A stretch of DNA of 64,000 nt from Thioclava sp. GXIMD2076. GTDB lineage: Bacteria > Pseudomonadota > Alphaproteobacteria > Rhodobacterales > Rhodobacteraceae. The notes under the pieces are model-generated. The model saw nothing but the letters and a program-made list of their open reading frames with translations, was not told where the DNA came from and did not search any database. This document shows, piece by piece, positions 7,783 to 32,308 of this stretch (position 1 is its first letter; the number at the start of each line of letters is the position of its first letter). The stretch lies in the NCBI RefSeq assembly GCF_037949795.1, contig NZ_CP149932.1, positions 919,001-983,000 on the forward strand, in the 5' to 3' direction. The translations under genes and the position numbers were made by a program.

Positions 7783-7794
7783 TGTCGTCGCTCC

Positions 7795-13115: not shown

Positions 13116-13189
13116 GGCGAGTTGGCGGAGTGGTGACGCAGCGGATTGCAAATCCGTGTACAGGAGTTCGATTCTCCTACTCGCCTCCA
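13116..13189 (+). tRNA. tRNA-Cys (GCA)
   Basis: A complete cloverleaf with encoded CCA. The acceptor arms GGCGAGT and ACTCGCC pair fully. The anticodon stem GGATT/AATCC encloses GCA, and the T arm reads AGGAG-TTCGATT-CTCCT. Its 3' part is the left attachment site of the integrated element, and the gene stays intact because the integrated copy restores it. Confidence 0.98.
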
Positions 13190-13190
13190 A
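13146..13190. repeat. Left attachment repeat (attL) in tRNA-Cys
   Basis: These 45 bp, from the anticodon (TTGCAAATCCG) to two bases past the tRNA body (GCCTCCAA), recur without mismatch at 32,264-32,308 in the same orientation. The flanking bases differ at both ends. A direct repeat comprising a tRNA 3' end next to a tyrosine recombinase gene is the standard signature of an integrated element. Confidence 0.95.
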
Positions 13191-13195
13191 TATTT

Positions 13196-14269
13196 TCAAT
13201 GACATAGCTGGTTCCTCTTCTTAGGGGTATCACTGTGGGTATCAGGTTCTTTCTCTGATCCCCGTTCGTTCCCCGTGTCATTTCGCTTCTCTGCCGCCTG
13301 CCGCGCCCGCATGATTTGACGCGCCTCACCGGCATATTTCCGGACCATCGCGTCGGTCGCGTGGCCGCTGAAAGATTTGATCTCGTCGTCCGAGCAGCCC
13401 GCCCAGGCCAACTCCTTGATTCCGCGATAGCGCAGAGCGTGCAGGTCAAACTGCTCCAGATGCATGCGCCGCCGCGCCTTGAGCATGATCTGCGCCATGT
13501 AGCGGTAGCTCATCTTACCGCCGGTCTGCGTGCGCAAGATCGGTCCCTCCGCACCATCTTCAAATCGTGCCTGAGCATCGAGCAGCGCGGCCTTCAGCTC
13601 CGCTGTGCAGGGCAATTGAAGCGCGTAGCCGGTCTTGTTTTGGCGAACCGCCAGCGTCTCGCCGTCAAAATCCGCCCAAGTAAAATCCACCCAGTCCCCG
13701 GGCCGCTGCACTGTGCCGACGCCAATCTCGAAGATAAGCCGCTCGGTGACCGTCGCCTTCTCGCGGAAAGTTGCCACGGCCTGATCGGTCCACGGCAGGT
13801 GGACCTGCTTCTTGTCGTCAGGCGTCGGCAAATGGCGGACACCCTTTGCCGGGTTCTGCAAAAGCCAGCCAAGATCAATCGCGTGCTCGCACAGGATAAC
13901 CAGCATCTGCGGGATATAATTGGCAAAGCGGACACGGTGCGCGTTGGCGCGCTGCGCTTTGATGACATCCTGCCGCGACAACAGCTTCACGTCCCGCTCG
14001 CCGATCTTCTCTTCGAGGTAGGTTAAGACCTTTTCGTAATCTTGACGGGTACGTGGCTTCAGCGATGTCCAGCGATCCGAGACCCGATAATCCTTCATCA
14101 AGGTCGACCAGCTGGTCTTGGCCTGCATCCTCTTACCGGTCAGGATCTCCCAATATTCGAGATCGAACTCGGGCGTCCCCTGCTTCGCGGAAATCCGATG
14201 GTAACGGCCCTGAACACGCACATACCAACGGCCGCTGGGGTGCCGCCAAAGGAATTTCTTCTTCACCAT
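13196..14269 (-). CDS. int: Tyrosine recombinase / site-specific integrase
   Basis: A 357-residue phage-type integrase. The N-terminal part (MVKKKFLWRHPSGRWYVRVQ) resembles an arm-type DNA-binding domain, and a SAM-like core-binding domain follows. The catalytic residues are visible: Arg in GTVQRPGDWV, HxxR in LHALRYRGI, His in SFSGHATDAM and the nucleophile Tyr in MVRKYAGEA. The C-terminal tail is charged and probably disordered. The stop codon lies 6 bp from the tRNA-Cys repeat, so the gene reads toward its own attachment site. Its start overlaps the end of the small helix-turn-helix gene upstream, suggesting translational coupling in a three-gene recombination operon. Confidence 0.95.
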   Translation of the reverse strand: MVKKKFLWRHPSGRWYVRVQGRYHRISAKQGTPEFDLEYWEILTGKRMQAKTSWSTLMKDYRVSDRWTSLKPRTRQDYEKVLTYLEEKIGERDVKLLSRQDVIKAQRANAHRVRFANYIPQMLVILCEHAIDLGWLLQNPAKGVRHLPTPDDKKQVHLPWTDQAVATFREKATVTERLIFEIGVGTVQRPGDWVDFTWADFDGETLAVRQNKTGYALQLPCTAELKAALLDAQARFEDGAEGPILRTQTGGKMSYRYMAQIMLKARRRMHLEQFDLHALRYRGIKELAWAGCSDDEIKSFSGHATDAMVRKYAGEARQIMRARQAAEKRNDTGNERGSEKEPDTHSDTPKKRNQLCH

Positions 14270-14472
14270 TCGACGTCCTCCAGCCCTTGCACGGCTTTGC
14301 CTGAGACAAAGGCCGAAAGCTCCTCAACGCTCCAGCGTGTCAGGCCCGGCGCTAGCTCTCGCCCACGCGGGACGCTGCCATGGGCGACGAGGCTGCGGAA
14401 TTCGTCGATCCGGACGCTTAGTAGATGTGCTGCGCCTCTCTCAGAGACGACCAATGGGCGAAGGTTGCTCAT
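14263..14472 (-). CDS. Small helix-turn-helix (AlpA/Xis-like) protein
   Basis: A 69-residue protein beginning MSNLRPLVVSERGAAHLLSV and containing RIDEFRSLVAHGSVPRG and LTRWSVEELSAFVSG. This layout (a short winged helix choosing a sequence, then a W-S-xx-EL segment) resembles AlpA/excisionase-type DNA-binding proteins. It overlaps the excisionase-like gene upstream and the integrase start downstream (ATGGTGA), so it probably belongs to the recombination-control operon. It may direct excision or regulate int. The longer open frame starting at 14619 overlaps the upstream gene and is less likely. Confidence 0.65.
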   Translation of the reverse strand: MSNLRPLVVSERGAAHLLSVRIDEFRSLVAHGSVPRGRELAPGLTRWSVEELSAFVSGKAVQGLEDVEW

Positions 14473-14680
14473 CAGAGGCCTCCTCGTCGGTCTGATCGTT
14501 GCGAAGGGCCTGGACCGTATGCGCATCCAGAAACTCGTTGAGGGCGCTCTCAGGAACGAGGAAGCGGCGCCCCACGCGGACGTGCCGTAGGCGGCGATCA
14601 CCAAGCAGGGATCGGACATGCCGCACGGACAATGACAGTCGCTCGGCCACGTCCTTCGGCTCTAACATCATCTCGGACAT
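14441..14680 (-). CDS. Excisionase-family DNA-binding protein
   Basis: A 79-residue protein with a MerR-like helix-turn-helix of the excisionase family: EPKDVAERLSLSVRHVRSLL, then RRLRHVRVGRRFLVPESAL. Such proteins bend DNA at attachment sites and favour excision. The start at 14680 has a good ribosome-binding site (AAGGAAA) and fits the domain; the longer frame to 14773 would run through the repeat-rich control region. It is the first gene of the leftward int operon and is divergent from the XRE repressor gene, a lysogeny-switch-like arrangement. Confidence 0.8.
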   Translation of the reverse strand: MSEMMLEPKDVAERLSLSVRHVRSLLGDRRLRHVRVGRRFLVPESALNEFLDAHTVQALRNDQTDEEASDEQPSPIGRL

Positions 14681-14744
14681 GGCTTTCCTTTCTTCTGGTA
14701 CATCGGTAGACCTCTTGGTGTCGAAACAAGCAATCCACGGACGA

Positions 14745-14792
14745 TATGTCCATATATGGCCACTTATGGCCAATTAAGGTCACTCATGTCCA
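14745..14792 (+). promoter_or_regulatory. Five 10-bp-phased operator repeats between xis-like gene and repressor
   Basis: Five units start exactly every 10 bp: TATGTCCA (14745), TATGGCCA (14755), TATGGCCA (14765), TAAGGTCA (14775) and CATGTCCA (14785). The fourth contains the ribosome-binding site of the XRE gene and the fifth its start codon. All units therefore lie on one face of the helix. The likely reading is a cooperative operator through which the XRE protein represses itself and the leftward recombination operon. Confidence 0.7.
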
Positions 14793-15187
14793 GTACCTTT
14801 TCGGAGATCGGGGGGCGTCTCAGGGAGTTGAGGGCACGAACGGGCCTGAATCAGCAGGATTTTGCTGAAACGATCGACACATCGTTCCGCTCCTACCGAG
14901 CCTATGAGAACGGACAGCGCGAGCTGCCAACCGCTGTCGTGCTGCGCATTCATGAGATCATGAACGTGTCGCCCCATTGGCTTCTGCTTGGGGAAAAGGA
15001 GCCGACCGACGACCGCAGCATGCAGATCATCGAGCAGGTCGCGAAGGCTTGCCTGGATGCGATGGATCAGTCACCAACTGAGCGCGACAATGCCGAAAAG
15101 GCCAAGAAGCTACGGCTCTTGGTCAAACTCAGCCTGGGCCAAGGCGAGTGCCTGCCGGAAACGGATATCAGGGAACTGCTAGGTTGA
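14786..15187 (+). CDS. XRE-family transcriptional repressor
   Basis: A 133-residue regulator. The N-terminal helix-turn-helix reads IGGRLRELRARTGLNQQDFA, then ETIDTSFRSYRAYENGQREL, a typical Cro/CI-type HTH_3. The C-terminal helical half (MQIIEQVAKACLDAMDQSP) probably dimerises. The start at 14786 is preceded by AAGGT within the operator array; an in-frame ATG at 14756 lies inside the repeats and is less likely. It diverges from the excisionase-like gene and would act as the maintenance repressor of the element. Confidence 0.85.
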   Translation: MSSTFSEIGGRLRELRARTGLNQQDFAETIDTSFRSYRAYENGQRELPTAVVLRIHEIMNVSPHWLLLGEKEPTDDRSMQIIEQVAKACLDAMDQSPTERDNAEKAKKLRLLVKLSLGQGECLPETDIRELLG

Positions 15188-15193
15188 GCGCCG

Positions 15194-15472
15194 ATGTCGA
15201 ACGTGAGGAAGAGGAGGCCGCCCTTGACGCATCTACCTGATCTTGCAACTGCACGGTTATTAAAGCTCGTGCGAAACCTTAAGTTTCTGGCAGCAGGCTT
15301 GTTCTTGACTGGACTGGGCTTCGGCGGCTTCTTTGTTAGTCTGCAAGGGAGCGCTGAAGCTAAAATCTCGAATTTAGCGGCCTGTATAGCTTTCTTGATA
15401 GCGGCCATAATGGCTCAGAGAGCAAAAGTCGAAGCTGCCCGCGCGTTACTCGGATTGACGATCCGGAATTAG
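15194..15472 (+). CDS. Small two-helix membrane protein, function unknown
   Basis: A 92-residue protein with a basic N-terminus (MSNVRKRRPP) and two predicted membrane segments, FLAAGLFLTGLGFGGFFVSL and ISNLAACIAFLIAAIMAQ. It starts 7 bp after the repressor stop and is probably co-transcribed with it. I recognise no family. Proteins of this size next to phage-like repressors can be superinfection-exclusion or toxin-like factors, but nothing in the sequence shows that. Confidence 0.6.
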   Translation: MSNVRKRRPPLTHLPDLATARLLKLVRNLKFLAAGLFLTGLGFGGFFVSLQGSAEAKISNLAACIAFLIAAIMAQRAKVEAARALLGLTIRN

Positions 15473-15762
15473 TCTAGAAACCAGCGAATAAAGATCAGAA
15501 ACTGAATTGGGCAGGACGTCCGACTGTCGTCGACGGAAAGAAAAAGACTGCATCCAAGAAACCTACAACCTGGCACCACGACGCATTCCAAATTATCCAT
15601 TTCGCTCAGCCGGAAATGTGACTTTACTTTCAGCCTAAAAAACTCTTGATCGCATCAGTCGGGACCACTTAGGGGCTGAATTGGCGAACCCGCAGCAGTA
15701 TGTTCAATTTCGTAGCTCTGCGCGGATGTGACAAAAGTAAACCAAAGTTTAAGATAACAGCA
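15473..15762. other. Intergenic stretch without recognisable gene
   Basis: This is 290 bp of AT-richer DNA between the small membrane-protein gene and the convergent UDG-like gene. I see no open frame with coding character, no tRNA and no strong hairpin with a T-tract. Confidence 0.6.
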
Positions 15763-16452
15763 TCAATGATCCACTGCTACATGGGACATGGAGAAAAGAT
15801 CGGGCTCAAGGTCTTCCATGACATCTGAATAAAGTCTTCTCATTGTTGAAAGAAACTCTTTCTGCCCGCCATAACTGGGGTGACGAACCTTTGAGACGTC
15901 CCTGCACGACACCGCTGAGGAAACTACATTAAAGGCGTCGTTACCAATGGCAACAATGCGCTTTGGCTTCAAATAATCCACAATCTGAACAAGGATGTCC
16001 GTCCCAGCTCTTCGCTCCTGCGCATTATGGGCGCGATTAGTGAATGGCTTGCTGCCTTCAAAAGGATGGAGCGGAAAGACATTCCACAAAAAAATCGGCG
16101 CCTGAACCTGGAGCAAAATATTCCAAATCACAGAAGCGGTCCGCTCTGACACCGGCTCGCCATATGTAGGCCGCTCAGGCTTCAAACCCCAGCGACTCAA
16201 ATGGCTTGAAAAATGGACATCATCTGTGAGAGCCAGTCCGGTTCTTCTGCCGCCACGATAACCGAGATCGCGTCCGACCCAGATAGCATCAAGATCAGCT
16301 GCGGCTGCGCGCTCCAACATTGCGTGCAGATAAAACCGTCTTATTTCGGGGGCTTCTTGTGCATCATAGACCGGGCATCGCTCGAAATATGGGTTGAAAG
16401 TGTTGTCAAACTCTAGGCGTTCTAAGGCCTTGAGTATATCGCCCGCGCTCAC
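15763..16452 (-). CDS. Uracil-DNA glycosylase-superfamily protein
   Basis: A 229-residue protein with the landmarks of the UDG fold. WVGRDLGYRGGRRTGLAL (58-75) takes the place of the GEAPG-type water-activating motif. NVFPLHPFEG (124-133) and VAIGNDAF form the core, and RHPSYGG (190-196) corresponds to the DNA-intercalation motif with its histidine. Family 4/5-type iron-sulfur cysteines are not arranged as expected, and the first motif is divergent (GRDLG), so the excised base may not be uracil. The start is GTG at 16452 with AAAGGGGC upstream; the preceding gene ends 2 bp away. It is the last gene of the four-gene leftward operon with TIR, Nmad2 and MazG-like genes, which points to attack on modified or uracil-containing phage DNA. 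Confidence 0.75.
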   Translation of the reverse strand: MSAGDILKALERLEFDNTFNPYFERCPVYDAQEAPEIRRFYLHAMLERAAAADLDAIWVGRDLGYRGGRRTGLALTDDVHFSSHLSRWGLKPERPTYGEPVSERTASVIWNILLQVQAPIFLWNVFPLHPFEGSKPFTNRAHNAQERRAGTDILVQIVDYLKPKRIVAIGNDAFNVVSSAVSCRDVSKVRHPSYGGQKEFLSTMRRLYSDVMEDLEPDLFSMSHVAVDH

Positions 16453-16454
16453 TG

Positions 16455-17603
16455 CTACGCCCCTTTCAGCGGCCTGTATTCGATCGTCCTCTTATCTCGA
16501 TTCCCGACCACGATACCACCGTTATTCTTACGCATCTGACGGAAGACCTCATACCCTTGTAGGATAGCAGTTTCCCATAGATTAAGCGGACATCGCTCCA
16601 CCTCGTAGCCGCGAACGAAATTGCTCACAGCCTTTAGCAAATCGAAAGAAACCGAAGTTTGACTCTCAAAGAAGTTCAATGCCTTAGCCTCCGAAAATAT
16701 GTAGGCAGACACCCCTTCATCGACAACGATCGCACGGCCACTGTCCTGCGCTTCATCGACCCTAGGATCACTCTTTCGCTTATGTTTGATCAGTGCCCTG
16801 AACGTCGGGGACCAGTGCAGGATGGCAGCGTTTGCGAAGTGGAAAACATCATGAAAGCGATAACCATCGGGGTCTGCAATATTATCCGTAAGCGGGTCCC
16901 CGATAAAAACCCCATTCCATCTCAAGTAGCTTCTTCCATTCGATCTTTGCGTGATCTCTATCTCAAACTGACGCGGAAGTTGCTCTTCTGCCGGAAAGCT
17001 AGCATCGAAGTCGGGAAGGCAATCTGGAGATGGCTTCAAGAAGCGCCCCGTTGATTTGCGAATATTTGATTTTAAAACTTCAGAGAAGGACACTCCTGAA
17101 GACTGCACGGCCTGAATGTAGGCGCGCACAAATTCAATCATTATCGGCTTGGCAGTTTTTTCATCAACTTTGACACCAAGAAGACGGGCGGAATCTTCTC
17201 CCAGCTTTAATAATACGTTATCTAGTGGCCCAAGGCCTTTTGCCGTCATCACACGTGCTATGGGTGCGCTTGGATCGGAATTTGCAGTGATATTTGCGAC
17301 AAACTGATCGCCCGAGGTCGCCTCTACAAAAAGCTCGGACAAGCTGAGTTTGAGCCTTCGGCAAAGTGCAGCAGCATACCATAGCGTATCACCCAGCTCT
17401 TCCTCAACGTCGCGTCGATACCCAGATTCAAAGGCACCCTTTTCCCGATGAAGCTTCTTGGACGTGCTCATAACACTGCCGACTTCACCAAAGAGACCGA
17501 GCAATATCGGCGTAATCTCATCGTCTGCAAATCGATCGGTAGGCGTAACGGCTTTCTCATAATCAGAAATTGAAATCTGGGGCGTGCTTGCTGAGTTACT
17601 CAT
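16455..17603 (-). CDS. MazG-like nucleotide pyrophosphohydrolase with a long C-terminal domain
   Basis: A 382-residue protein. Residues 30-95 form an all-alpha MazG-type NTP pyrophosphatase domain: GLFGEVGSV (Glu40) and VEEELGDTLWYAAALCRRL with the metal-binding ExxD (Glu69, Asp72). The remaining 280 residues form a helical domain containing YRFHDVFHFANAAILHW near residue 240 and VVDEGVSAYIFSEA, perhaps related to the MazG-associated C-terminal domain described for nucleotide-centric conflict systems. The ATG at 17603 overlaps the upstream Nmad2 stop (ATGA), so translation is coupled. The likely role is hydrolysis of a particular (d)NTP or signal nucleotide; the substrate is unknown. Confidence 0.75.
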   Translation of the reverse strand: MSNSASTPQISISDYEKAVTPTDRFADDEITPILLGLFGEVGSVMSTSKKLHREKGAFESGYRRDVEEELGDTLWYAAALCRRLKLSLSELFVEATSGDQFVANITANSDPSAPIARVMTAKGLGPLDNVLLKLGEDSARLLGVKVDEKTAKPIMIEFVRAYIQAVQSSGVSFSEVLKSNIRKSTGRFLKPSPDCLPDFDASFPAEEQLPRQFEIEITQRSNGRSYLRWNGVFIGDPLTDNIADPDGYRFHDVFHFANAAILHWSPTFRALIKHKRKSDPRVDEAQDSGRAIVVDEGVSAYIFSEAKALNFFESQTSVSFDLLKAVSNFVRGYEVERCPLNLWETAILQGYEVFRQMRKNNGGIVVGNRDKRTIEYRPLKGA

Positions 17604-18226
17604 TTTCTCCGTCGCGCCTCTTCTATCATATCATATGGCCGCCCTTGATAGCCCTGAACACCAAGGCCGGCTAACCAATTCTCAAAACCTTCTATCGTAT
17701 TTTGATCGGAAACTTTCTTCCGCCCGATACCAGAGTGGACGAGACCAGCATCGCGAAATTCTACAGGAATAAGCGGCCCCTCGGCCCCGAAATAGATGAA
17801 TTCGGAGGAAATCAAAACACGGTTCACTGAGGTGTCGCGATTAATATGCTTCTGTAAGGGTTTTCCCTCTGCGGTGCTGTGGTAAGAATTGAGTTGACTC
17901 CAACTGCCGTTGCCTGGGTCAGGATTGTATATATTATCGCCGCATGCCTTCCGGTAACTGCTGTGCAAATTTGGCTTTTTGCCCGCAAAGCGTGGATCAT
18001 TCCAGTATTCGGAAAATTTTAGTACTTCCTGCACCCGCATCGCGTGAACGAGATGCCCGCCACGTCGCACCCCTTTGCGATTACTGCCGGTGCCAACGAC
18101 CCAGTCTCCAATAGCGGCATGACGCCTAATGCTAGGCTTACAGGTTGCCAAAGTGCAAAACCCATAAAATGGATTGGGTGCAAACCCACTATCGAAGCGC
18201 ACAACGTAACTGTGGAGGGTCTTCAT
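17600..18226 (-). CDS. Nmad2-family (nucleotide modification-associated domain 2) protein
   Basis: A 208-residue protein that I recognise by its start and core as the Nmad2 family: MKTLHSYVVRFDSGFAPNPF, GFCTLATCKPSIRRHAAIGD, GTGSNRKGVRRGGHLVHAMR and FSEYWNDPRFAGKKPNL, then ACGDNIYNPDPGNG. The family is named for its association in phages and islands with enzymes of modified-nucleotide metabolism; its biochemical activity has not been established as far as I know. The start codon follows GAGGGT, which overlaps the 3' end of the TIR gene 9 bp upstream, and its stop overlaps the MazG-like start. It is thus locked into one operon with them. Confidence 0.85.
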   Translation of the reverse strand: MKTLHSYVVRFDSGFAPNPFYGFCTLATCKPSIRRHAAIGDWVVGTGSNRKGVRRGGHLVHAMRVQEVLKFSEYWNDPRFAGKKPNLHSSYRKACGDNIYNPDPGNGSWSQLNSYHSTAEGKPLQKHINRDTSVNRVLISSEFIYFGAEGPLIPVEFRDAGLVHSGIGRKKVSDQNTIEGFENWLAGLGVQGYQGRPYDMIEEARRRK

Positions 18227-18235
18227 TCTATACCC

Positions 18236-18712
18236 TCATGCGCACGGATGGCGGCGAATAGCGCGGGGTGGGAGAGGCTGACCTTTCGGGTCCTCAAAGC
18301 GCTCATATTCACCGTTAATCGCTTCGATAATCCTATCTGCATTCCAGCCAACGATCGCGTCGCCGTACTCATCAAGCGCTTCCGGAACTTCACAACCGTT
18401 CGATCCTTGCTCCCAAACTCCGACGATGGTCTTGCCTTTTTCACGAGCTCGCTCGATTTCCCAGTCCACCCACTCACTGTTTTTTGTTTCCGGAGTAATA
18501 TAAACGATAAGTGTGCTGGCCCAGTCAATTCTGGGCGCAAGGATCTGAGACTTAATATAGTCTGGAGATTTTGCGTTGTTGGGTTTTTCTGAATTTATGG
18601 AACCGTCCCTGACCTCCATCCCCTTACTTTTTAGAAGATTTTTCAGATCGGCTAATCCTGCATCGTCTTCGTGGATGTGGCTAATAAAAACGTTTTTGCT
18701 GCCCTTGCTCAT
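18236..18712 (-). CDS. TIR-domain protein (ThsB/DUF1863-like)
   Basis: A 158-residue, single-domain TIR-like protein. It opens with KNVFISHIHEDDAGLADLKN (strand A and helix A), then SPDYIKSQILAPRIDWASTL and IVYITPETKNSEWVDWEIER. In the last, the WVDWE element (81-85) corresponds to the TIR SxWCxxE motif, with Glu85 as the probable NADase residue. This form resembles the Thoeris ThsB group, whose members convert NAD into a cyclic signal on phage infection. The start at 18712 has GAGGAT upstream; a longer frame to 18832 overlaps the divergent gene and is unlikely. It heads the four-gene operon with Nmad2, MazG-like and UDG-like genes. Confidence 0.82.
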   Translation of the reverse strand: MSKGSKNVFISHIHEDDAGLADLKNLLKSKGMEVRDGSINSEKPNNAKSPDYIKSQILAPRIDWASTLIVYITPETKNSEWVDWEIERAREKGKTIVGVWEQGSNGCEVPEALDEYGDAIVGWNADRIIEAINGEYERFEDPKGQPLPPRAIRRHPCA

Positions 18713-18819
18713 TGATGCTATCCTCTGCTTCACACTACATGCTGGCGTCAGCGCAGTCACTTCCGCGACATCATGTGTCCGGCGCGCACTCAGATCAAGT
18801 CCGATAGTCAAGGAAATCG

Positions 18820-20073
18820 ATGCTACCGCCAATCCTCGAAATTTTCATCGTTTGGCATCCGCAGGATACGTCGGGTCTCCAGACGGCTGATGCGATATTC
18901 AAACACTTCATGCATGGCCCGACATTCTCAGGTGTCATTGGGGGAGGGATTCAGGTCTCCTTTCGCAGTACGCCTTGGGGTGGGGCCGGAACCGCACCAA
19001 GGCCGATCTACAACAGCGCTCATCCTGCTCCGAACGGCATCCGACCGGCCAGGTTCACTGTGATCGTTCCTCTACTTGGCACAGAACTCGCCGCTAGCGT
19101 CGAGGACGGAACGTCGAGTTGGTCCCGATACATCGCCGCGCTTCAAGAAGATCAGGCGCGATCACCAGATGAAATCGGAATCTACCCCTTTTTGTTGTCA
19201 GACGGCGCCACGAATGGTACGAAGTTAGGCGATATTTTGGGGCGCCATCAGTTCGTCGCTGCCGGGAAGCCTGAGCAGCTTGGCGAAAGCGAAGTGAGCA
19301 TGCTGTGCCGCGATCTAACGCAAGGGATAGCTCAACTGATCTCGCCGGATGAGATGGATCGATTGACGACCTTCATTAGCCACACCAAGCGTCATAGCAG
19401 CTCGGAAGGTGAAGATGTTGACGCCTTGGTCGATTTGGTGCGTGACGTCATTGGGAATACGCGGCTACGCGAGTATTTCGACGCCAGTGACCTTCAACCA
19501 GGCTCTGACTGGGATGCCGAGCTCAGAGGGAATGCTAGTCAGAGCGCGATGCTGGCCATTCGTACCGATCTCTACGCTAGCCGCTCTTGGTGTCAGCGCG
19601 AAATTGCCTTGGCGAAAACCAATGGCATGCCGGTGATAATGATGGACGCGATTGGCTTTGGTGAGGAACGCGGCTCCTTCTTGATGGATCATGTCCCGCG
19701 AGTGGCGGTTCGAAAAGTCGATGGCCGCTGGCAGAAGAAGGATGTCTATCGTGCCCTCAACCTGCTCGTAGACGAGTGCCTTAAGAGGGCGCTCTGGCTA
19801 CACCAAAAAGAACTATCCGGCGAGCGCCCGGAGCTGGATATAGCCTGGTGGGCACCTCATGCGCCCGAGCCGCTAACTTTACTCCATTGGATCGGCTCTC
19901 AGCTCGCGTCCGGAAACCCAAGCGAGGCGGAGGGTTCCTTGCGCATACTGCATCCTGATCCGCCCCTCGGAGAAGCTGAGCGGGAGGTACTACAAGAATA
20001 TGCAAAGAGCACACAGCTGGGCCGTGATATCGACATAATGACCCCACGCCAGCTTGCGACCAGAGGAGGCTGA
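18820..20073 (+). CDS. Two-module TIR protein
   Basis: A 417-residue protein. Residues 1-180 look like a degenerate TIR/Rossmann module (LEIFIVWHPQDTSGLQTADA, FTVIVPLLGTEL). Residues 183-275 form a clear TIR domain: TTFISHTKRH, FDASDLQPGSDWDAELRGNA and ASRSWCQREIALAK, with Glu261 the expected NADase catalytic residue. The 120-residue C-terminal part is unassigned (helical, with WWAPHAPEPLTLLHWIGSQL). AAGGAAA precedes the ATG. The SLOG gene follows after one base, so they form a pair. The gene diverges from the small TIR gene across 107 bp, so the two arms may share one control region. Confidence 0.82.
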   Translation: MLPPILEIFIVWHPQDTSGLQTADAIFKHFMHGPTFSGVIGGGIQVSFRSTPWGGAGTAPRPIYNSAHPAPNGIRPARFTVIVPLLGTELAASVEDGTSSWSRYIAALQEDQARSPDEIGIYPFLLSDGATNGTKLGDILGRHQFVAAGKPEQLGESEVSMLCRDLTQGIAQLISPDEMDRLTTFISHTKRHSSSEGEDVDALVDLVRDVIGNTRLREYFDASDLQPGSDWDAELRGNASQSAMLAIRTDLYASRSWCQREIALAKTNGMPVIMMDAIGFGEERGSFLMDHVPRVAVRKVDGRWQKKDVYRALNLLVDECLKRALWLHQKELSGERPELDIAWWAPHAPEPLTLLHWIGSQLASGNPSEAEGSLRILHPDPPLGEAEREVLQEYAKSTQLGRDIDIMTPRQLATRGG

Positions 20074-20074
20074 A

Positions 20075-20926
20075 GTGGCTGACGAAAAGCAAAGGGCTGA
20101 ACTGCTGCCTGCTGATGCCTTGAAAGGCAAGCGCTTAGGAATTTCTGTCTCGAACAGTCCGGACCTAGATCGGCTAGGCCTCACTGAGACCCACTTCCGC
20201 ATGACCTTGGGGGAACTCGTGCGTTCCGTAGTCATCGCGGGCGGCGACCTCTATTACGGTGGCCACTTGCAGCCCGAAGGTATCACGACTTTTCTCATCG
20301 AAGAACTTCATCGCTATGGTCGCCGTGACAGGCCTTTGAAGGTTTGCTTGGCTTGGAGCATTCATCGATCTATGAGCAAGGAACAGATCGCCGAACAGAA
20401 AGACTTCCTTGGTCTCTTTGGTGAGATTCACTTCTTGGACAGCAATGGGGATCGCTTGGAGGGCCCTCTTAATGAGGAGCCAGTAAGCGAGTTCTCTTCC
20501 GAAGAAAGGGCCGGAGCACTCAGCGGCTTACGCAACTACATGGCAAAAAACACCGACGCCCGCATTGTGATTGGTGGAAAACGCGATGGTTTTGAAGGCG
20601 CTATGCCTGGCATCGTAGAAGAGGTCTTGCTCTCTCTCGAAAGTAAACAGCCTGTCTTCTTGGCGGGTGGGTTCGGCGGCGCTGCGGTGGACATTATTCG
20701 CGTTCTCCGTCCTGGAAGTGCAGAATGGTTTCCTTTGAGCCCAGAGACAAGAAATGACTCCCGCTTACTGGATAGTCTCGAACGGGTTTCCGAAGTTGCC
20801 AGCCGGATGGAATGGGATGGTTTAAAAAACGGCCTGAGCGAAGAGGAGAATAGCCTCCTTGCAGCCTCATACCGCCCAAGCGAAATCGCCGCTCTAGTGG
20901 GGCGCGGCCTCGGAAGAATTCTGTAG
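20075..20926 (+). CDS. SLOG-fold nucleotide-sensor protein
   Basis: A 283-residue stand-alone protein with Rossmann-like SLOG landmarks: KRLGISVSNSPD (19-30), AGGDLYYGGHL (55-65), RIVIGGKRDGFEGAMPGIVE (163-182) and VFLAGGFGGAAVDIIRV (194-210). SLOG domains bind NAD- or nucleotide-derived ligands; in Thoeris the SLOG part of ThsA senses the TIR product. Here no SIR2 or transmembrane effector is fused to it. The start is GTG at 20075 with a near-perfect GAGGAGG seven bases away; the frame could be extended to a TTG at 20054 within the TIR gene. I infer that it senses, or processes, the product of the neighbouring TIR proteins. Confidence 0.78.
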   Translation: MADEKQRAELLPADALKGKRLGISVSNSPDLDRLGLTETHFRMTLGELVRSVVIAGGDLYYGGHLQPEGITTFLIEELHRYGRRDRPLKVCLAWSIHRSMSKEQIAEQKDFLGLFGEIHFLDSNGDRLEGPLNEEPVSEFSSEERAGALSGLRNYMAKNTDARIVIGGKRDGFEGAMPGIVEEVLLSLESKQPVFLAGGFGGAAVDIIRVLRPGSAEWFPLSPETRNDSRLLDSLERVSEVASRMEWDGLKNGLSEEENSLLAASYRPSEIAALVGRGLGRIL

Positions 20927-21169
20927 CTCTGATGTTCTAATAATTTTCCGACATGCTTCGGAGGATAAGCCATATAGAAACGCCTCCCGTGCGCTACTCC
21001 CCGATACAGGTTTAGCTACACTTGCATTGACATTCACCTGAAGCAGACATCTAAGTCTCTCAACAACACCCCCCAGGCGACCGGCAGAAAGGCCGAGCTC
21101 AATACCGGGGGGTTGCTTGTTCTCAGGGGGTTGTTCGTCACCCGGAGGTCCACGAATAGTCCCTTTCAT
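20894..21169 (-). CDS. Small hypothetical protein behind a shared promoter/operator block
   Basis: A possible 91-residue protein beginning MKGTIRGPPGDEQPPENKQP, with a helical-looking middle (GLSAGRLGGVVERLRCLL) and no recognised family. Its 3' end overlaps the SLOG gene by 33 bp. Support comes mainly from context. The block at 21,186-21,253, 17 bp upstream, is homologous in layout and sequence to those in front of the leftward mobC and relB-like genes, with the same spacing (about 65 bp from palindrome to start as for mobC). No clear ribosome-binding site is seen. It could also be a decayed gene behind an intact promoter. Confidence 0.4.
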   Translation of the reverse strand: MKGTIRGPPGDEQPPENKQPPGIELGLSAGRLGGVVERLRCLLQVNVNASVAKPVSGSSAREAFLYGLSSEACRKIIRTSELQNSSEAAPH

Positions 21170-21185
21170 ATCTATGCAGCTTCGT

Positions 21186-21253
21186 TACCTGCTGGCGTCT
21201 AACCGATCATGTTTGCACCCGCCTCAGTGCCCAGTGTGGCCCCGGACCACATT
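21186..21253 (-). promoter_or_regulatory. Promoter/operator block, copy 1
   Basis: On the plus strand it starts TACCTGCTGGCG and ends in an imperfect palindrome (TGTGGCC, then GGACCACA; 21,235-21,251). The same order and spacing (47-49 bp) occur at 27,801 and 28,809. This copy has one mismatch in the left arm. It faces the small leftward gene starting at 21,169 and lies 180 bp upstream of the rightward methyltransferase gene. Confidence 0.55.
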
Positions 21254-21377
21254 TTCGATCCGACCAGCCGTAGTGCTTCGGCGTTGCCCCCGCCCCCTCA
21301 GGGGCAATCACGGTAACTAGATACCATCAAAACCCAAGCGCTCCGACAGACAATTACGTCGGTTTACGTTTGTTTTC

Positions 21378-21406
21378 GGTAGTTTCGTGCAGTTTCCTGC
21401 ACTACC
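21378..21406 (+). promoter_or_regulatory. Bulged hairpin upstream of the methyltransferase gene
   Basis: GTGCAG and CTGCAC (21,387-21,402) enclose a 4-nt loop. The stem continues through GGTAG (21,378-21,382) and CTACC (21,402-21,406) if a small bulge is allowed. It lies 28 bp before the start codon and has no T-tract. It could be an operator or an mRNA structure controlling methyltransferase synthesis. The rest of 20,927-21,430 shows only the small leftward gene and the operator block. Confidence 0.4.
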
Positions 21407-21433
21407 AATAGGGTAACTACGCCGAGGCCCTTG

Positions 21434-24130
21434 ATGAATCCTACTGAAATTTATGACGCATTGGCGGAAATTGCTGCCGAACCGTTTGATGCCACCGAAT
21501 TCCCCTTTGCCTTTGCCGCCGCCACCGATGGCGCTAAGGCGGCGATCTCCAAGCTGCGGAGCGGGTCGACCAATAAGTCCGACCTGCCCGGCGGTGTGCT
21601 GTTCGGCAAGAAGTTCCACTTTGCCCCCGTGCTCGCGGGCTCGACCGATGCCATGCTGGACCAGCTGCGCAGCTCGAAGAAGACCAAGACCTCGAAGCCC
21701 GCGATCCTGATCGCGACGGATGGCGAGATGATCTCGGCAGAGCATCCGGCTTCGGGCGATACGCTCCACTGTCGCTTCGCGGAGCTTGGCGATAACTTCG
21801 GTTTCTTCCTGCCCGCAGCGGGCAAGGAACGCTACCGCGCGGTCGAAGAAAACCCCGTCGACGTCAAGGCGACCGGCAAGCTGGCCCGCCTCTATGACGC
21901 GCTGACCAGGGCCAACCCCGATTGGGGCAGCGACGAGCGTCGGCATGAGATGAACCAGCTGATGATGCGGCTGATCTTCTGCATGTTCGCCGAGGACGTC
22001 GGCATCTTCCCCGACAATCAGTTCTCGCGCCTGCTGTTCACCCACGCGGGCGACAAGGGCGAGGAGGCGCGCGAAACCATCATCGCGGCCTTCCAGGCGA
22101 TGAACCTGCCCAAGACCAAGCGTGAGGGCCTGCCCGCCTGGACGGGCGAGCTGGAATACGTCAACGGCGGGCTCTTTGCGGGCACCATCGACGCGCCGCG
22201 CTTTGATGCCGTGGCCTTCCGCTATCTGCGCGAGGCCTGCGACCTGAACTGGCGCGAGATCAACCCCGACATCTTCGGTTCGATGATCCAGTCGGTCGCG
22301 GACCCGAAGCAGCGCTCGGAGCTGGGGATGCACTACACCTCGGTGCCGAACATCATGAAGGTGATCGGGCCGCTGTTCCTTGATGATCTCGATGCCGAGA
22401 TCCAAAAGACGTGGGACCGTAGCCGCGGGCTGCAACAGGTGCTGGACCGGATGTCGCGCATCCGCGTGTTCGACCCGGCCTGCGGATCGGGCAACTTCCT
22501 TGTCGTGTCCTACCGTGAGCTGCGGGCGCGCGAGACGCGCATCCTGCGGCGGCTGGAAGAGCTGAACGGCCCCGGGTCGCTGACCATGTTCTCGGCCATC
22601 CCGATCAGCCATTTCTACGGCATCGAGATCGCGGATTTCGCCGCCGAAACCGCCAAGCTGGCGCTATTCATCGCCGAATATCAGGCGAATGCCAGCTTTG
22701 CCGAGGTTTTTGGCCGCCGCCCTGCCGCGCTGCCCCTGAAGGATGCGGCGCATATTCGCACCGGGAATTCGCTACGTATCGACTGGGAGGAGGTCTGCCC
22801 GCCACCTGGAGATGGTGAGGAAGTGTTCATCGCGGGCAATCCGCCGTTCGCCGGTTCGACCTATCAGACGGCAGATCAAAAGAACGATATGCGAGAGCTT
22901 CTCGCGGGTAACTTCAAGACGTTCAAAGATCTGGACTACGTCATATGCTGGTTCTTCGTGGCTGCTCGATACATCGGCACGAGAAATGTTTCTGCGGCCT
23001 TTGTCGCCACGAACTCCATTTGCCAAGGTCAATCGGTGCCGATGTTCTGGGGAAATACCCTGTCTGAGCAGTGTCAGATTCAGTTTGCACACCAGCCATT
23101 CAAATGGACCAACAACGCCACAAAAAATGCGGCGGTGTTGTGTGTTGTCGTGGGTATCTCTGCCGCTAATAGCCGAAAAAAAATTCTTTATGACGGCGAC
23201 CTTCGTGAAGAAGTCACATCGATAAACGGCTACTTGGTTGAAGGTCCGAATGTAGCTGTTTCAGCCTCCAACACAGCGATTTTTGACTTGCCGAAGATGT
23301 ACCGCGGTAGCGCCGCTACAGAGGGTGGGCACTTGATCCTGACTGAATCTGAAGCCCAAGATCTTTCAGAGGATTACCCTGAGGGAACGAAATTTGTTCG
23401 CAAATTTCTCGGCTCTAAGGAGGTTGTGCGCGGGGAGACGAGATGGTGTCTTTGGATCAAGGATGAGGACGTTGAACTTGCATGGAGCATCCCGCCAATC
23501 GCTGAAAGACTGGAAGCGGTGGCAAAGTTCCGTGCTGCGAGCAAGAACGCTGTAACGCGCCCAGCTGCCGCGACGCCCCACCGATTTTGGTTCATCAGCG
23601 GCGAGGCTGAAAGCCACTCGATACTTGTTCCCCGCGTTACATCCGAACGTCGCCCATACCTTGCCGTCGAACGGGTTGGGGCCGATGTGATTTCATCAGA
23701 CCTCAATCAAGTGCTCTACGACGCGCCTGAATGGTGCATCGCGCTCATTGCATCGCGACTCCATATTGTCTGGATCGGTACCGTTTGTGGCAGGTTGGAG
23801 AGCCGCTACCGGTACTCCAACACCCTGGGCTGGAACACCTTCCCTGTGCCGAAATTCACTGAAGACCAGCTGGAGGCGCTCTCGGCCTCGGCCCGCAAAA
23901 TCCTGCGTTGTCGCTATTCCCATTACCCCGCCACGATTGCCGAGCTCTACGACCCCGACAAGATGCCCGACGACCTGCGCGCCGTGCATCGGGAAAACGA
24001 CGAGCTGCTGGAAGGCATGTATATCGGCCGCCCCTTCCGCAATGACACCGAACGGCTGGAGAAGCTCTTCAAGCTCTATGCCGCCAAGGTGAAGTCGCTG
24101 GAGTCCGCGCCAAAGAAAAAGAGGGCCTGA
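21434..24130 (+). CDS. Large SAM-dependent DNA methyltransferase (MmeI/type IIG-like, no nuclease seen)
   Basis: An 898-residue DNA methyltransferase. The N-terminal 300 residues are helical (FPFAFAAATDGAKAAISKLR, then RRHEMNQLMMRLIFCMFAED) and lack an obvious PD-ExK nuclease motif. SAM motif I is VFDPACGSGNFLVV (near residue 348) and catalytic motif IV is IAGNPPFAG (near 469), the NPPF form of amino-methyltransferases making N6-methyladenine. A target-recognition region follows (about 500-800), then a conserved helical end. GC content drops visibly across roughly 22.8-23.8 kb, the recognition region. The start at 21434 is preceded by GAGG. The gene heads a three-gene operon with a helicase and a GIY-YIG nuclease. 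Confidence 0.9.
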   Translation: MNPTEIYDALAEIAAEPFDATEFPFAFAAATDGAKAAISKLRSGSTNKSDLPGGVLFGKKFHFAPVLAGSTDAMLDQLRSSKKTKTSKPAILIATDGEMISAEHPASGDTLHCRFAELGDNFGFFLPAAGKERYRAVEENPVDVKATGKLARLYDALTRANPDWGSDERRHEMNQLMMRLIFCMFAEDVGIFPDNQFSRLLFTHAGDKGEEARETIIAAFQAMNLPKTKREGLPAWTGELEYVNGGLFAGTIDAPRFDAVAFRYLREACDLNWREINPDIFGSMIQSVADPKQRSELGMHYTSVPNIMKVIGPLFLDDLDAEIQKTWDRSRGLQQVLDRMSRIRVFDPACGSGNFLVVSYRELRARETRILRRLEELNGPGSLTMFSAIPISHFYGIEIADFAAETAKLALFIAEYQANASFAEVFGRRPAALPLKDAAHIRTGNSLRIDWEEVCPPPGDGEEVFIAGNPPFAGSTYQTADQKNDMRELLAGNFKTFKDLDYVICWFFVAARYIGTRNVSAAFVATNSICQGQSVPMFWGNTLSEQCQIQFAHQPFKWTNNATKNAAVLCVVVGISAANSRKKILYDGDLREEVTSINGYLVEGPNVAVSASNTAIFDLPKMYRGSAATEGGHLILTESEAQDLSEDYPEGTKFVRKFLGSKEVVRGETRWCLWIKDEDVELAWSIPPIAERLEAVAKFRAASKNAVTRPAAATPHRFWFISGEAESHSILVPRVTSERRPYLAVERVGADVISSDLNQVLYDAPEWCIALIASRLHIVWIGTVCGRLESRYRYSNTLGWNTFPVPKFTEDQLEALSASARKILRCRYSHYPATIAELYDPDKMPDDLRAVHRENDELLEGMYIGRPFRNDTERLEKLFKLYAAKVKSLESAPKKKRA

Positions 24131-24133
24131 CAC

Positions 24134-26209
24134 ATGGTTCAGATGGTTAATGTCACCTACGGCACCTCCAAGGCGACCACGAATGCTCTTGGTCAGCGCC
24201 CGATGCAGGCCCGCACCTATGCCGCCCGCGCCGCGCAGTTCCTGCTGCTGAAGGCACCGCCCGCGGCAGGCAAGAGCCGCGCGCTGATGTTCGTGGCGCT
24301 CGACAAGCTGCGCCATCAGGGGCTGGAAAAGGTGATCGTCTGCGTGCCCGAAACCTCGATCGGCGGGTCGTTTCGCTCGACCGATCTGACCAGCTATGGG
24401 TTCGAGGCGGATTGGGAGGTCGATGACCGCTGGAACCTCTGCCTGACCGGCGAGGATGCCGACAAGCAGAAGGTAAAGGCCTTCCAGACCTTTATGGACA
24501 GCGACGCATCGGTGCTGGTCTGCACCCATGCCACCTTCCGCTTCGGCTTTGACGAGGTGATCAAGACCAAGGGGATCGAGGCCTTTGACAGCTGCTTCAT
24601 CGCCATCGACGAGTTCCACCATGTCTCGGCCTCGGACAACAACCGGCTGGGGGTGATCCTGCGCAGCCTGATCAATCGCGCCGAGTGCCATGTCATGGCG
24701 ATGACCGGCAGCTATTTCCGGGGCGATGCCGACCCGGTGCTGCGCCCCGAGGACGAAGATCGCTTCACCAAGATCACCTACAGCTATTACGAGCAGCTGG
24801 AGGGCTATGCCTGGCTCAAGGCGCTCGGGATCAATTACGAGTTCTACAAGGGCAATTACGTCAACGGGCTGCCGGGGGTACTGAACCCCGACCAGAAGAC
24901 GATCATCCACATCCCGCATCGTGGTTCGTCCGAGGCGTTTGATGACAAGTTCAATGAGGTGGGCAAGATCATCGACCTGCTGGGCACCCATGAAGGGCGT
25001 GATCCCGAGACAGGGTTCGATCTGGTGCGCAAGCCTGATGGCGCGGTGCTGAAGGTCGCGGACCTAGTGGATGACGGGCCGGGGCGCGATATCGTCAAGG
25101 CAGCGCTGTCGCGCGAGATCAAGGGGCGGGACGGCAAGCGCGATGACGTGGCAGACCGGGCCAAGGTCGACATTATCATCGCGCTCGGGATGGCCAAGGA
25201 AGGCTTCGACTGGGTCTGGTGTGAACATGCGCTGACCATCGGCTATCGCTCGTCGCTGACCGAGATCGTGCAGATCATCGGGCGCGCCACCCGTGATGCA
25301 CCGGGCAAGCCCCGCGCGCTGTTCACGAACCTTGTTGCCGAACCCGGTGTGGAAACTGGCGTCGTGACCGATGCTGTGAACGACATGCTCAAGGCGATCT
25401 CCGGGTCCCTGCTGATGGAGCAAGTTCTGGCTCCGAACTTCAAGTTTTACCGCCGCGAAGATGGCGACGTGCGCGCGCCGATGGGCTCCGATGACGAGGG
25501 CAATATCACCATCGGCATCAAGGGGCTGGTCGAGCCGCCCACGGATCGCTCGCGCGAGATCTGCGAGAAGGACATGAACGACCTGATGGCGACAGCCTAT
25601 CAGGAGATGGACCGGCGCGTGCTATCGCCAGACACTGCCCCCGAGGTTGCCACGCAGATGGTGCTGACCGATATCATCGAGAAGCGGTATGAGACGCTGG
25701 ATGCTGAGGAAGCGGAGTCTGTTCGTCAGCATCTCGCGGCGCATATGAACGTGCTGACGCTGGCGCGGAAGGAAGCGGAACGTGGTTTTGCCGAGGGTCA
25801 GTCGCCCCTGAGCGGCACGCCCCCGAAGCCGAGCGGTGATGACGATGACGGCGACCCCGCCAGCGCGCCGAATACTCTGCTGGAGATGGTTCGGAAGTTT
25901 ATCAACGTCCGGGACATCGACATCGAGCTGATCGACAGCGTGAACACCTTCCAGGAACGCTTCGAGGTCGCGTCGAAATCGCTGAACTCCGAGCTGCTGT
26001 CGCATGTGCAGTCTGCGATGGTTGCCCTGCGCGTGAACATGACCGGCGATGAGGCCAGGACGCTTTGGCCGCGCATCAAGGCCTTCCGCGCCACCGAAGG
26101 ACGTGAGCCGAATGTCCATTCCGCCAATCCGCTTGAAAAGCGCATGGCAGAGGCGCTTGCCTGGCTGAAGGCTGAAAAGGCCAAACGTCTTCGTGAGGGG
26201 GCTCTGTGA
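24134..26209 (+). CDS. DEAD/DEAH-type superfamily 2 helicase
   Basis: A 691-residue SF2 ATPase. Walker A is LKAPPAAGKSRAL (40-52), the Walker B/DExH motif is CFIAIDEFHHV, motif III is AMTGSY, and motif VI reads EIVQIIGRATRD near residue 380. The C-terminal third holds an acidic low-complexity linker (SGDDDDGDPASA) and a helical domain. It starts 3 bp after the methyltransferase stop, and its own stop overlaps the nuclease start (TGATG). It would be the motor of a restriction-like complex, moving on DNA after the methyltransferase subunit tests methylation state. This role is inferred from gene order. Confidence 0.9.
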   Translation: MVQMVNVTYGTSKATTNALGQRPMQARTYAARAAQFLLLKAPPAAGKSRALMFVALDKLRHQGLEKVIVCVPETSIGGSFRSTDLTSYGFEADWEVDDRWNLCLTGEDADKQKVKAFQTFMDSDASVLVCTHATFRFGFDEVIKTKGIEAFDSCFIAIDEFHHVSASDNNRLGVILRSLINRAECHVMAMTGSYFRGDADPVLRPEDEDRFTKITYSYYEQLEGYAWLKALGINYEFYKGNYVNGLPGVLNPDQKTIIHIPHRGSSEAFDDKFNEVGKIIDLLGTHEGRDPETGFDLVRKPDGAVLKVADLVDDGPGRDIVKAALSREIKGRDGKRDDVADRAKVDIIIALGMAKEGFDWVWCEHALTIGYRSSLTEIVQIIGRATRDAPGKPRALFTNLVAEPGVETGVVTDAVNDMLKAISGSLLMEQVLAPNFKFYRREDGDVRAPMGSDDEGNITIGIKGLVEPPTDRSREICEKDMNDLMATAYQEMDRRVLSPDTAPEVATQMVLTDIIEKRYETLDAEEAESVRQHLAAHMNVLTLARKEAERGFAEGQSPLSGTPPKPSGDDDDGDPASAPNTLLEMVRKFINVRDIDIELIDSVNTFQERFEVASKSLNSELLSHVQSAMVALRVNMTGDEARTLWPRIKAFRATEGREPNVHSANPLEKRMAEALAWLKAEKAKRLREGAL

Positions 26210-27417: not shown

Positions 27418-27447
27418 AGGCGTCGCCGCTCCCAGTATGGAGCGTAG

Positions 27448-27744
27448 CTACTTGCTCCGCTTCGCCTCGATGATCTGGAGACCCGCTTTCATAACGTCTT
27501 CATGCGCATAAGAGGCCCGTTTGCCTTTCACGGCAGCCTCAAGGCGCGCCCGAAACCAACGTTCATAGTCTTCGGGATCGGGCTCCAGCCAGCTGGGCAA
27601 ACCGCCTTCGCGGATCACCACTTTCAGGAAAAGCTCTACTGCTGCCGCAAAAGGGATGCCTGCCTCGTTGAGAACGCCTCTAGCTGCCTCGGCGGTGCCT
27701 GTGTCAATCGAGACATTGAGGGTGGAGCCTGTCTTGAGGTGCAT
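27448..27744 (-). CDS. RelB/DinJ-like antitoxin without a toxin gene
   Basis: A 98-residue protein. The N-terminal ribbon-helix-helix part reads MHLKTGSTLNVSIDTGTAEA and ARGVLNEAGIPFAAAVELFL, the usual RelB/DinJ signature. EDYERWFRARLEAAVKGKRA follows and would be the toxin-binding region. The start at 27744 has AAGGA upstream; a longer frame to 27768 is unlikely. No RelE/YafQ-type toxin gene precedes or follows it: the downstream side is the convergent nuclease gene. It is either an orphan that counteracts a toxin on other elements or a regulator. The promoter/operator block upstream resembles that of mobC. Confidence 0.75.
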   Translation of the reverse strand: MHLKTGSTLNVSIDTGTAEAARGVLNEAGIPFAAAVELFLKVVIREGGLPSWLEPDPEDYERWFRARLEAAVKGKRASYAHEDVMKAGLQIIEAKRSK

Positions 27745-27800
27745 CGCTCGTCCTTCGCTTTGGATCATCCGCCGTTGATCAATGACATAAAAAGGTGGCC

Positions 27801-27883
27801 TACCTGCCGGCGCTTAGCCTATCCTACATTAGCGCCAACCCCACGGGAAAATGTGGTCCGGGACCACATTTCCGGACCACATT
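27801..27883 (-). promoter_or_regulatory. Promoter/operator block, copy 2 (perfect palindrome)
   Basis: The block begins TACCTGCCGGCG on the plus strand. It holds CCTATCCTACATTAG and ends with a perfect palindrome whose arms AATGTGGTCC and GGACCACATT flank one G (27,850-27,870). An extra half-site, GGACCACATT, follows at 27,874-27,883. It lies upstream of the leftward RelB-like gene. The layout is shared with copies at 21,186 and 28,809. Confidence 0.7.
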
Positions 27884-27911
27884 CGCATTGCTGAGTTCAT
27901 CACGTTTTCTG

Positions 27912-28791: not shown

Positions 28792-28808
28792 TGAGATCAA
28801 AAGTAAAT

Positions 28809-32263: not shown

Positions 32264-32308
32264 TTGCAAATCCGTGTACAGGAGTTCGATTCTCCTACTC
32301 GCCTCCAA
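32264..32308. repeat. Right attachment repeat (attR)
   Basis: This is an exact 45-bp copy of 13,146-13,190: the 3' part of tRNA-Cys from the anticodon on. No 5' half is present, so it is not a tRNA gene. It marks the right end of the integrated element; chromosomal sequence resumes at 32,309. Confidence 0.95.

Follow-up and report, generated by a model that had tools for sequence, protein, structure and literature searches.

The question raised by this locus is whether six adjacent genes for TIR, SLOG and nucleotide-processing proteins act as one anti-phage system and, if so, how such a system would work. The genes lie at positions 15763 to 20926 of the window, i.e. the whole 64,000-nucleotide stretch of Thioclava sp. 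GXIMD2076 DNA that was analyzed. All six open reading frames (ORFs) were recovered from the ORF list of the window as earlier described. The leftward arm consists of genes for UDG, MazG fused to MazG_C, Nmad2 and a short TIR protein, the rightward arm of genes for a 417-residue TIR protein and a SLOG cluster 2 (SLOG2) protein. The four leftward and two rightward genes, their families and the 107-bp spacer reported in the first-pass annotation were thus confirmed. In our reading, the six genes form one mobile anti-phage cassette, in which a Thoeris-like alarm running from TIR to SLOG is combined with a module for sensing and excising modified pyrimidines; the chances that this reading is right are judged to be about even. 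The features concerned are the following.

15763..16452, minus strand: UDG-superfamily DNA glycosylase, family-4-like, 229 aa (PF03167 and motifs)
16455..17603, minus strand: MazG-type all-alpha nucleoside triphosphate (NTP) pyrophosphohydrolase fused to MazG_C, 382 aa (PF18722)
17600..18226, minus strand: Nmad2, 208 aa, candidate reader of modified bases or nucleotides (PF18753; PUA-like structure model)
18236..18712, minus strand: short ThsB-like TIR protein, 158 aa, presumed signal maker (PF08937; PADLOC ThsB)
18713..18819, no strand: divergent spacer, 107 bp, presumed to hold both promoters
18820..20073, plus strand: TIR protein, 417 aa, presumed NADase effector (PF13676 at residues 185-267)
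20054..20926, plus strand: SLOG2 protein, 290 aa (start at TTG uncertain), presumed sensor of the signal and partner of the TIR protein (PF18163)

The UDG and MazG genes are separated by 2 bp and the Nmad2 and short TIR genes by 9 bp, MazG and Nmad2 overlap by 4 bp, and the TIR and SLOG genes overlap by 20 bp, given a SLOG start at TTG 20054. For the short TIR, ATG 18712 is the most probable start, which leaves exactly 107 bp to the ATG at 18820. Within these 107 bp, no sigma-70-like promoter site scored above shuffled controls. Other divergent loci allowed the spacer to be measured 14 times, two of these on one and the same contig, with two further loci not being measurable; 13 values lie at 89-112 bp, and that of the fourteenth (L043) was skewed by start choice.

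Both arms as one unit

In the nearest relative, Rhodobacter sp. NTK016B, the same six genes were found with 95% identity over 5147 bp (window 15790-20936). Beyond the gene set, the adjoining 1.8 kb on the left and 2.1 kb on the right gave no match to that locus with E lower than 0.03. Since homology stops at the ends of the gene set, this one pair indicates that the set was moved or kept as a cassette. A second homology block (L039) covers window positions 15851-20908 with 67.6% identity. The same six genes in divergent order were found in two further genomes (G077 and G227, the G077 contig being also locus L049), and a plasmid of Rhodococcus RHA1 carries five of the six plus a gene of the 5-hmdU-kinase type.

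Among 385 genomes sampled from the class, the window's own genome being included in all counts, MazG_C was found in 13, Nmad2 in 13 and SLOG2 in 6. MazG_C and SLOG2 occurred together in 3 genomes versus 0.2 expected, and in all three the six genes were adjacent and in the same divergent order. The outcome named in the first-pass annotation as refuting its idea, arms that do not co-occur in other genomes, was thus not observed. MazG_C and Nmad2 occurred together in 9 genomes versus approximately 0.4 expected. In the survey described below, the divergent layout of the window was seen at 13 of 20 TIR-SLOG2 loci, equal to 13 of the 80 Nmad2 loci (one of them, L049, being the G077 contig), and pairwise distances of Nmad2 and SLOG were correlated (r 0.76, 25 loci, species history not removed). 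Judged by homology and gene order, the two arms form one unit at this locus.

The locus had also been placed in an AT-richer, integrated element, and both points hold. The GC content is 0.52 across the six-gene stretch versus 0.61 elsewhere in the window, and the genes lie in a 19.2-kb tRNA-Cys island (13146-32308), which is bounded by perfect 45-bp direct repeats and carries an integrase:

13146..13190, plus strand: attL-like repeat, 3' part of tRNA-Cys (45-bp perfect repeat)
32264..32308, plus strand: attR-like repeat (45-bp perfect repeat)
13196..14269, minus strand: tyrosine integrase of the island (PF00589, 4.6e-11)

The island cargo also includes TrbL, type IV secretion system-family, NikA/MobC-like and HTH_36 genes; at 19.2 kb, the island is probably too short for full conjugation. 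Adjoining the cassette, an MmeI-type restriction-modification gene, a DEAD helicase gene and a gene for a MUG113/T5orf172-domain protein follow each other, nearly touching, at 21431-27417, and this run is a possible second defence operon.

The six proteins

Residue conservation was read from alignments that took part of the sequences found (Nmad2, 49 or 52; MazG_C, 40 or 55 of 94 ORFs; UDG, 26 of 75; short TIR, 31 of 86; 417-aa TIR family, 19 of 30). For the UDG, Pfam family PF03167 was matched with 25.8 bits, only just over the cut-off of 24.3. The protein carries the motifs GRDLGYRGGRRTG and RHPSYGG, and R61, D62, N124 and H191 were invariant in 26 of 26 aligned homologues. The marks of the superfamily, the motif A acid D62 together with H191-P-S, were accordingly present in all 26; D62 is the residue that we take to be catalytic from its position in the motif. 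In the PDB profile search, UDG 4zbx was matched weakly (E 0.0084), and a type-4 UDG model was matched below threshold (E 0.0031). A plain housekeeping role for this protein, which the first-pass annotation had raised as the competing outcome, is unlikely because the host genome holds two further UDG-family matches, both stronger than that of the cassette.

The second protein had been called MazG-like. Its MazG type was upheld, and the larger part and stronger match proved to be the MazG_C domain (PF18722, 3.9e-84), with the Pfam MazG domain remaining below cut-off. It matches iMazG 2q5z in a PDB profile search (5.6e-9), and the acidic E..EE..D metal site and helical bundle of MazG/all-alpha NTP pyrophosphohydrolases are present, E40, E69 and D72 being kept in 40 of 40 aligned sequences and E68 in 39 of 40. 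An AlphaFold model of the N-terminal half gave a soft fold match to dimeric dUTPase, a hint that this half is dimeric-dUTPase-like.

Nmad2 was matched by PF18753 at 4.8e-75 (251.9 bits versus a cut-off of 26.1) and the SLOG protein by SLOG cluster 2, PF18163, at 1.5e-58 (198.9 bits versus a cut-off of 25.3); neither gave a real match in the PDB sequence search. The AlphaFold model of Nmad2 showed a soft fold match to PUA-like proteins (YTH/EVE/ASCH), which hints at such a fold, and a search of a viral fold library returned one match (7.5e-4), to a protein without name. The short TIR was identified by ThsB_TIR (PF08937, 2.4e-23) and PADLOC ThsB (PDLC00418, 2.8e-66), with E85 invariant in 31 of 31 homologues. 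In the 417-aa protein, TIR_2 (PF13676, 1.9e-6) was matched at residues 185-267, preceded by an N-terminal region of no recognised type and followed by a conserved C-terminal PDPPLG-type motif; W257 and E261 were invariant in 19 of 19 homologues. Because its TIR glutamate is kept, this protein is probably the NADase that kills the cell and not another maker of the signal. TIR and SLOG are joined in one chain in Gloeothece, Priestia and locus L137.

A recurrent core and its exchangeable effectors

GTDB species genomes were scanned once for Nmad2, yielding 398 stretches that encode relatives, and the best 80 of the 398 were analyzed as loci; the core is thus not rare. Neighbours were labelled with profiles built from these loci, and single members were checked with Pfam, NCBIfam and PADLOC. 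Two pairs of loci are the same DNA (L024 and L065; L026 and L049), and the correlation given above was run without the double. By record title, the loci belong to Alpha-, Beta- and Gammaproteobacteria, Acidobacteriota, Gemmatimonadota, Chloroflexota, Ignavibacteriae, Poribacteria, Latescibacteria and Omnitrophota, some of these higher-group names being presumptive assignments of our own; plasmid loci widen the spread to Actinomycetota and Cyanobacteriota. Neighbours of Nmad2 were counted as follows.

Within 7 kb, all loci (n = 80): short TIR 78, MazG_C 74, UDG 65, TIR-SLOG2 20, ThcA with ThcB4 28, SLOG-patatin 7, ThsA 6, 5-hmdU-kinase type 6, any SLOG effector 55
Loci with 5 kb on both sides (n = 62): short TIR 61, MazG_C 58, UDG 53, TIR-SLOG2 16, ThcA with ThcB4 26, SLOG-patatin 6, ThsA 5, 5-hmdU-kinase type 5, UDG or 5-hmdU-kinase type 58, any SLOG-bearing effector 48
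Collapsed at 80% Nmad2 identity (n = 47): short TIR 45, MazG_C 42, UDG 35, TIR-SLOG2 17, ThcA with ThcB4 5, SLOG-patatin 2, ThsA 4, any SLOG effector 27

From these neighbourhoods, the predicted system is modular, with a short TIR and Nmad2 as one module, MazG_C with UDG or the 5-hmdU-kinase type as a second, and an effector as the third. The effector varies and usually bears SLOG: TIR-SLOG2, ThcB4/ThcA of Thoeris type III, a SIR2-SLOG ThsA or a SLOG-patatin. Where tested, effectors adjoining the core matched the Thoeris models (ThcB4, 8.2e-145; ThcA, 9.2e-79; ThsA, 8.8e-154).

In the first module, the short TIR is missing from two Nmad2 loci, L094 (cut by the contig end) and L108 (not cut). 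As the short TIR is nearly always accompanied by Nmad2 in the loci seen, Nmad2 is its most plausible candidate switch. Several variants of this module were observed. In ten of the 80 loci (L093, at 7772-8464, and nine others), a protein of approximately 170-280 aa adjoins TIR-Nmad2. Pfam scans of two members gave no match, some members show a membrane-like N-terminal stretch by eye, and eight of the ten loci have no visible SLOG effector; it is a candidate effector family. Loci L020, L096 and L105 hold two divergent TIR-Nmad2 pairs with a thymidylate-kinase-like gene in between, and a large patatin-like gene adjoins one of the pairs.

In the second module, UDG or the 5-hmdU-kinase type was present in 70 of the 74 Nmad2 loci with MazG_C (exceptions L045, L108 and the cut loci L087 and L094), and among the 15 MazG_C matches of the class sample, 10 had UDG and the other five a 5-hmdU-kinase-type gene as partner. 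The latter type is PF18723, as verified by Pfam on one member. This pairing, together with the dUTPase-like model, points to uracil or a 5-substituted uracil. One explanation is that UDG and MazG_C serve as bait or brakes: MazG_C would clear a trigger nucleotide made during growth, and its blocking or saturation by a phage would let the trigger reach Nmad2-TIR. A dUTPase-like NTPase that destroys the trigger would account for the frequent pairing with an alarm, and MazG_C is found more constantly than UDG (74 versus 65 of 80). We consider this explanation decidedly improbable, and it does not fit the six of 80 loci that lack MazG_C in the vicinity, four of which do not run into a contig end.

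Three loci with full flanks (L107, L113 and L116) have TIR and Nmad2 without UDG, the 5-hmdU-kinase type or MazG_C within 7 kb. They argue against a scheme in which the enzymes feed the signal, i.e. a modified base freed from phage DNA by UDG, or a modified dNMP released by MazG_C, is joined by the short TIR to ADP-ribose from NAD+ and the phage-marked product is read by SLOG. The histidine-ADP-ribose (His-ADPR) signal of type II Thoeris is a precedent for such a conjugate (PMC12847820), and UDG and MazG_C usually lie within the TIR run. The core adjoins effectors of different SLOG families, which suggests an ordinary shared signal instead, and we hold the scheme to be very unlikely.

The second module also occurs by itself. 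Seven of the 15 MazG_C matches of the class sample are without a short TIR and Nmad2 (for one of these, G274, an Nmad2 piece lies at the end of another contig), and none of the seven has a SLOG effector in the available flanks. Compared with 48 of 62 Nmad2 loci, the difference is significant (Fisher 1.1e-4; 0.016 for zero of the three long-flank loci L028, L029 and L035). Because no SLOG effector stands beside the seven loci without the pair, these effectors are suggested to belong with TIR and Nmad2. In two of the seven, a papain-like C1 peptidase is encoded near MazG_C with UDG or the 5-hmdU-kinase type (L028 6469-7269; L035 10976-11689), which may be one more effector of this nucleotide module.

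For the third module, a TIR adjoined or was fused to SLOG2 in eight of eight plasmid records (with an insertion sequence (IS) splitting the pair in L016) and in 10 of 12 distinct genomes; the remaining two have a SLOG-patatin gene beside ThcA/ThcB4. Seen from SLOG2, TIR-SLOG2 is by these counts a strict pair or fusion. Left-arm genes stand beside it in four of the eight plasmids and, the window included, in four of the 10 genomes; an additional plasmid, Roseicitreum pRA02, carries core genes plus a more distant TIR-SLOG2. Plasmid records with MazG_C numbered 34, of which six were examined. On the Klebsiella pneumoniae plasmid pKpnB199 (L018 6963-9801), a ThsB-like TIR is divergent from TIR-SLOG2 between IS elements, with no left-arm nucleotide genes in the 18.8 kb around TIR-SLOG2.

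Several of these observations weigh against one cassette. Arms and modules separate in many genomes: TIR-SLOG2 is without left-arm genes at 10 of the 18 examined TIR-SLOG2 places, 60 of the 80 Nmad2 loci show no TIR-SLOG2 within 7 kb, and Nmad2 is also found without TIR (L108, L133-L135). The fold matches (PUA-like, dUTPase-like) are soft, and related domains were previously predicted to be defensive (PMC13092281). An obligate six-gene system is ruled out by the separable arms. The first-pass view of the six genes as one system is supported in part: the arms co-occur much more often than expected and share a single homology block in the closest relative found, but the six do not make up an obligate set.

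Two systems lying side by side could give the same picture. TIR and Nmad2 with TIR-SLOG would be a Thoeris-like alarm with a trigger of its own, e.g. a phage protein, and MazG_C with UDG would only travel with it, as a base-excision defence of the Brig kind whose partner cleans up dNTPs. The seven of 15 MazG_C loci without short TIR, Nmad2 or SLOG effector agree with this, as do the six of 80 TIR/Nmad2 loci without MazG_C (two cut by the contig end) and the ability of a UDG-type glycosylase to defend alone (PMC11078745). Still, 63 of 80 loci encode MazG_C as well as UDG on the same strand as Nmad2, homology to the nearest relative runs across the two arms in one block, and Nmad2, which by family name belongs to base chemistry, is tied to TIR; we regard two independent systems as rather unlikely.

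The genes might also have no part in immunity, the island then carrying them for base modification or repair, and the TIR proteins having functions of a different kind. Members of the UDG and MazG families are also employed in repair and in the clean-up of nucleotides. In L133, L134 and L135 (Nmad2 at 8580, 8806 and 8864), from three genomes of 1.7-2.0 Mb and the same class, distant Nmad2 proteins that keep the D..LAPN...C...C-K-P motif stand among ordinary-looking genes (judged by eye) with no other profiles nearby, and a non-immune role is possible for these. For the cassette itself, such a role is scarcely probable given the recurrence of Thoeris-type effectors beside the core, the two other UDGs of the genome and the cassette-like homology block. 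A phage origin of the left arm found no support: none of 50,697 phage records matched Nmad2 or UDG at 1e-3. MazG matched 53 phage records, through the MazG domain only among the rows listed, and IMG/VR held seven contigs with Nmad2 relatives, five of these with other core genes.

Proposed mechanism and comparison with known systems

In the one-cassette reading, Nmad2, probably a PUA-like reader, would recognise an abnormal pyrimidine that appears during infection. The likeliest candidates are uracil and uracil substituted at position 5, either within DNA or as a nucleotide. Nmad2 would switch on its partner, the short ThsB-like TIR, for production of an ADP-ribose-type signal from NAD+. Binding of this signal by the SLOG protein would unleash the NADase of the partner TIR protein, and the cell would lose its NAD+ before phage is made. 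UDG would remove the abnormal base from DNA, and the matching dNTP would be destroyed by the MazG protein, a double action that would attack phage DNA and keep host DNA free of the trigger.

Gene order, conservation, the single homology block of the nearest relative, the module pairings and the conserved motif residues are observed directly. TIR NADase activity, SLOG sensing and the glycosylase and NTPase chemistry are assigned by analogy with known families; the trigger, the order of activation, the signal and the defence itself are what we infer. Because of the Thoeris precedent, the left-arm TIR is likely the signal maker and TIR-SLOG2 the reader and NADase. The earlier proposal of a TIR maker and a SLOG reader fits the SLOG-bearing effectors in 48 of 62 full-flank Nmad2 loci and is amended for the 417-aa TIR, probably a NADase and not a second maker. 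The triggers of many TIR systems are not established. Should Nmad2 prove to be a reader of bases or nucleotides that gates TIR, reader, signal maker, sensor and killer would all lie within 5 kb, and the cassette would join base-excision defence of the Brig kind to TIR signalling. Tentatively, a distinct class of TIR immunity may be envisaged, in which Nmad2, as a PUA-like reader of modified bases, directly gates the TIR signal maker and the trigger is a uracil/5-hydroxymethyluracil-type pyrimidine. The dNTPase and glycosylase (or 5-hmdU-kinase type) would process this very base, and the signal would be read by SLOG effectors (TIR, SIR2, patatin) that can replace one another. Because the core recurs with different SLOG effectors, it is a natural test of one common signal for TIR-SLOG2, ThcB4/ThcA, ThsA and SLOG-patatin.

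In Thoeris, TIR enzymes make ADP-ribose signals to which the SLOG-bearing ThsA responds (PMC12847820, PMC11204291, PMC13232231), the type II signal being His-ADPR (PMC12847820). Like type I, the window has a ThsB-like TIR, as identified by profile, plus a SLOG-bearing NADase, and the ThsA profile adjoins the core in six of 80 loci; unlike type I, a gene of its own encodes the presumed NADase half, a TIR protein. Neither SIR2 nor a macro domain, as in the TM-macro effector of type II, was found in the eight ORFs scanned with Pfam (15763 to 26209), in agreement with the first-pass annotation. Across the whole genome, STALD gave no match, and neither did its control. Type III (ThcA, NF058525; ThcB4, NF058526) resembles the window in placing a TIR gene of approximately 400 aa beside a stand-alone SLOG gene, often with small TIR proteins nearby, and in 28 of 80 loci its profiles matched genes no further than 7 kb from Nmad2. 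In contrast to type III, both TIRs and the SLOG of the window gave no match to ThcA/ThcB4 at E 0.01, the window SLOG belongs to cluster 2 and not cluster 3, and the two long TIRs are alignable over 138 columns, only in and beside the TIR domain.

The UDG-superfamily glycosylase Brig1 protects against phages with modified DNA and is sufficient alone, and brig1 lies near a ThsA-like gene (PMC11078745). Protection against such phages is also described for Brig3 and, as cited there, for Brig2 on modified thymine (PMC13160076). Compared by description only, the window shares with Brig1, Brig2 and Brig3 a UDG-superfamily glycosylase in a defence context; Brig1 acts alone and Brig3 with BapA, whereas the window UDG is in a run with an NTPase, Nmad2 and TIR. 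In nucleotide-centric conflict systems, as reportedly set out by Burroughs and others in 2015, TIR and SLOG are predicted makers and sensors of nucleotide signals. That work is cited as predicting several of these domains in PMC13092281, where DefensePredictor candidates include MazG, MazG-C, NMAD, UDG and aGPT-PPlase as predicted defensive; these systems are unvalidated there, and 'SLOG' and 'TIR domain' are absent from its main text, so that the present link is not worded there in these terms. Among the papers listed in searches on this gene combination and on Thoeris types III and IV, with subscription literature outside the search, no description of this TIR/SLOG-linked set was recognised.

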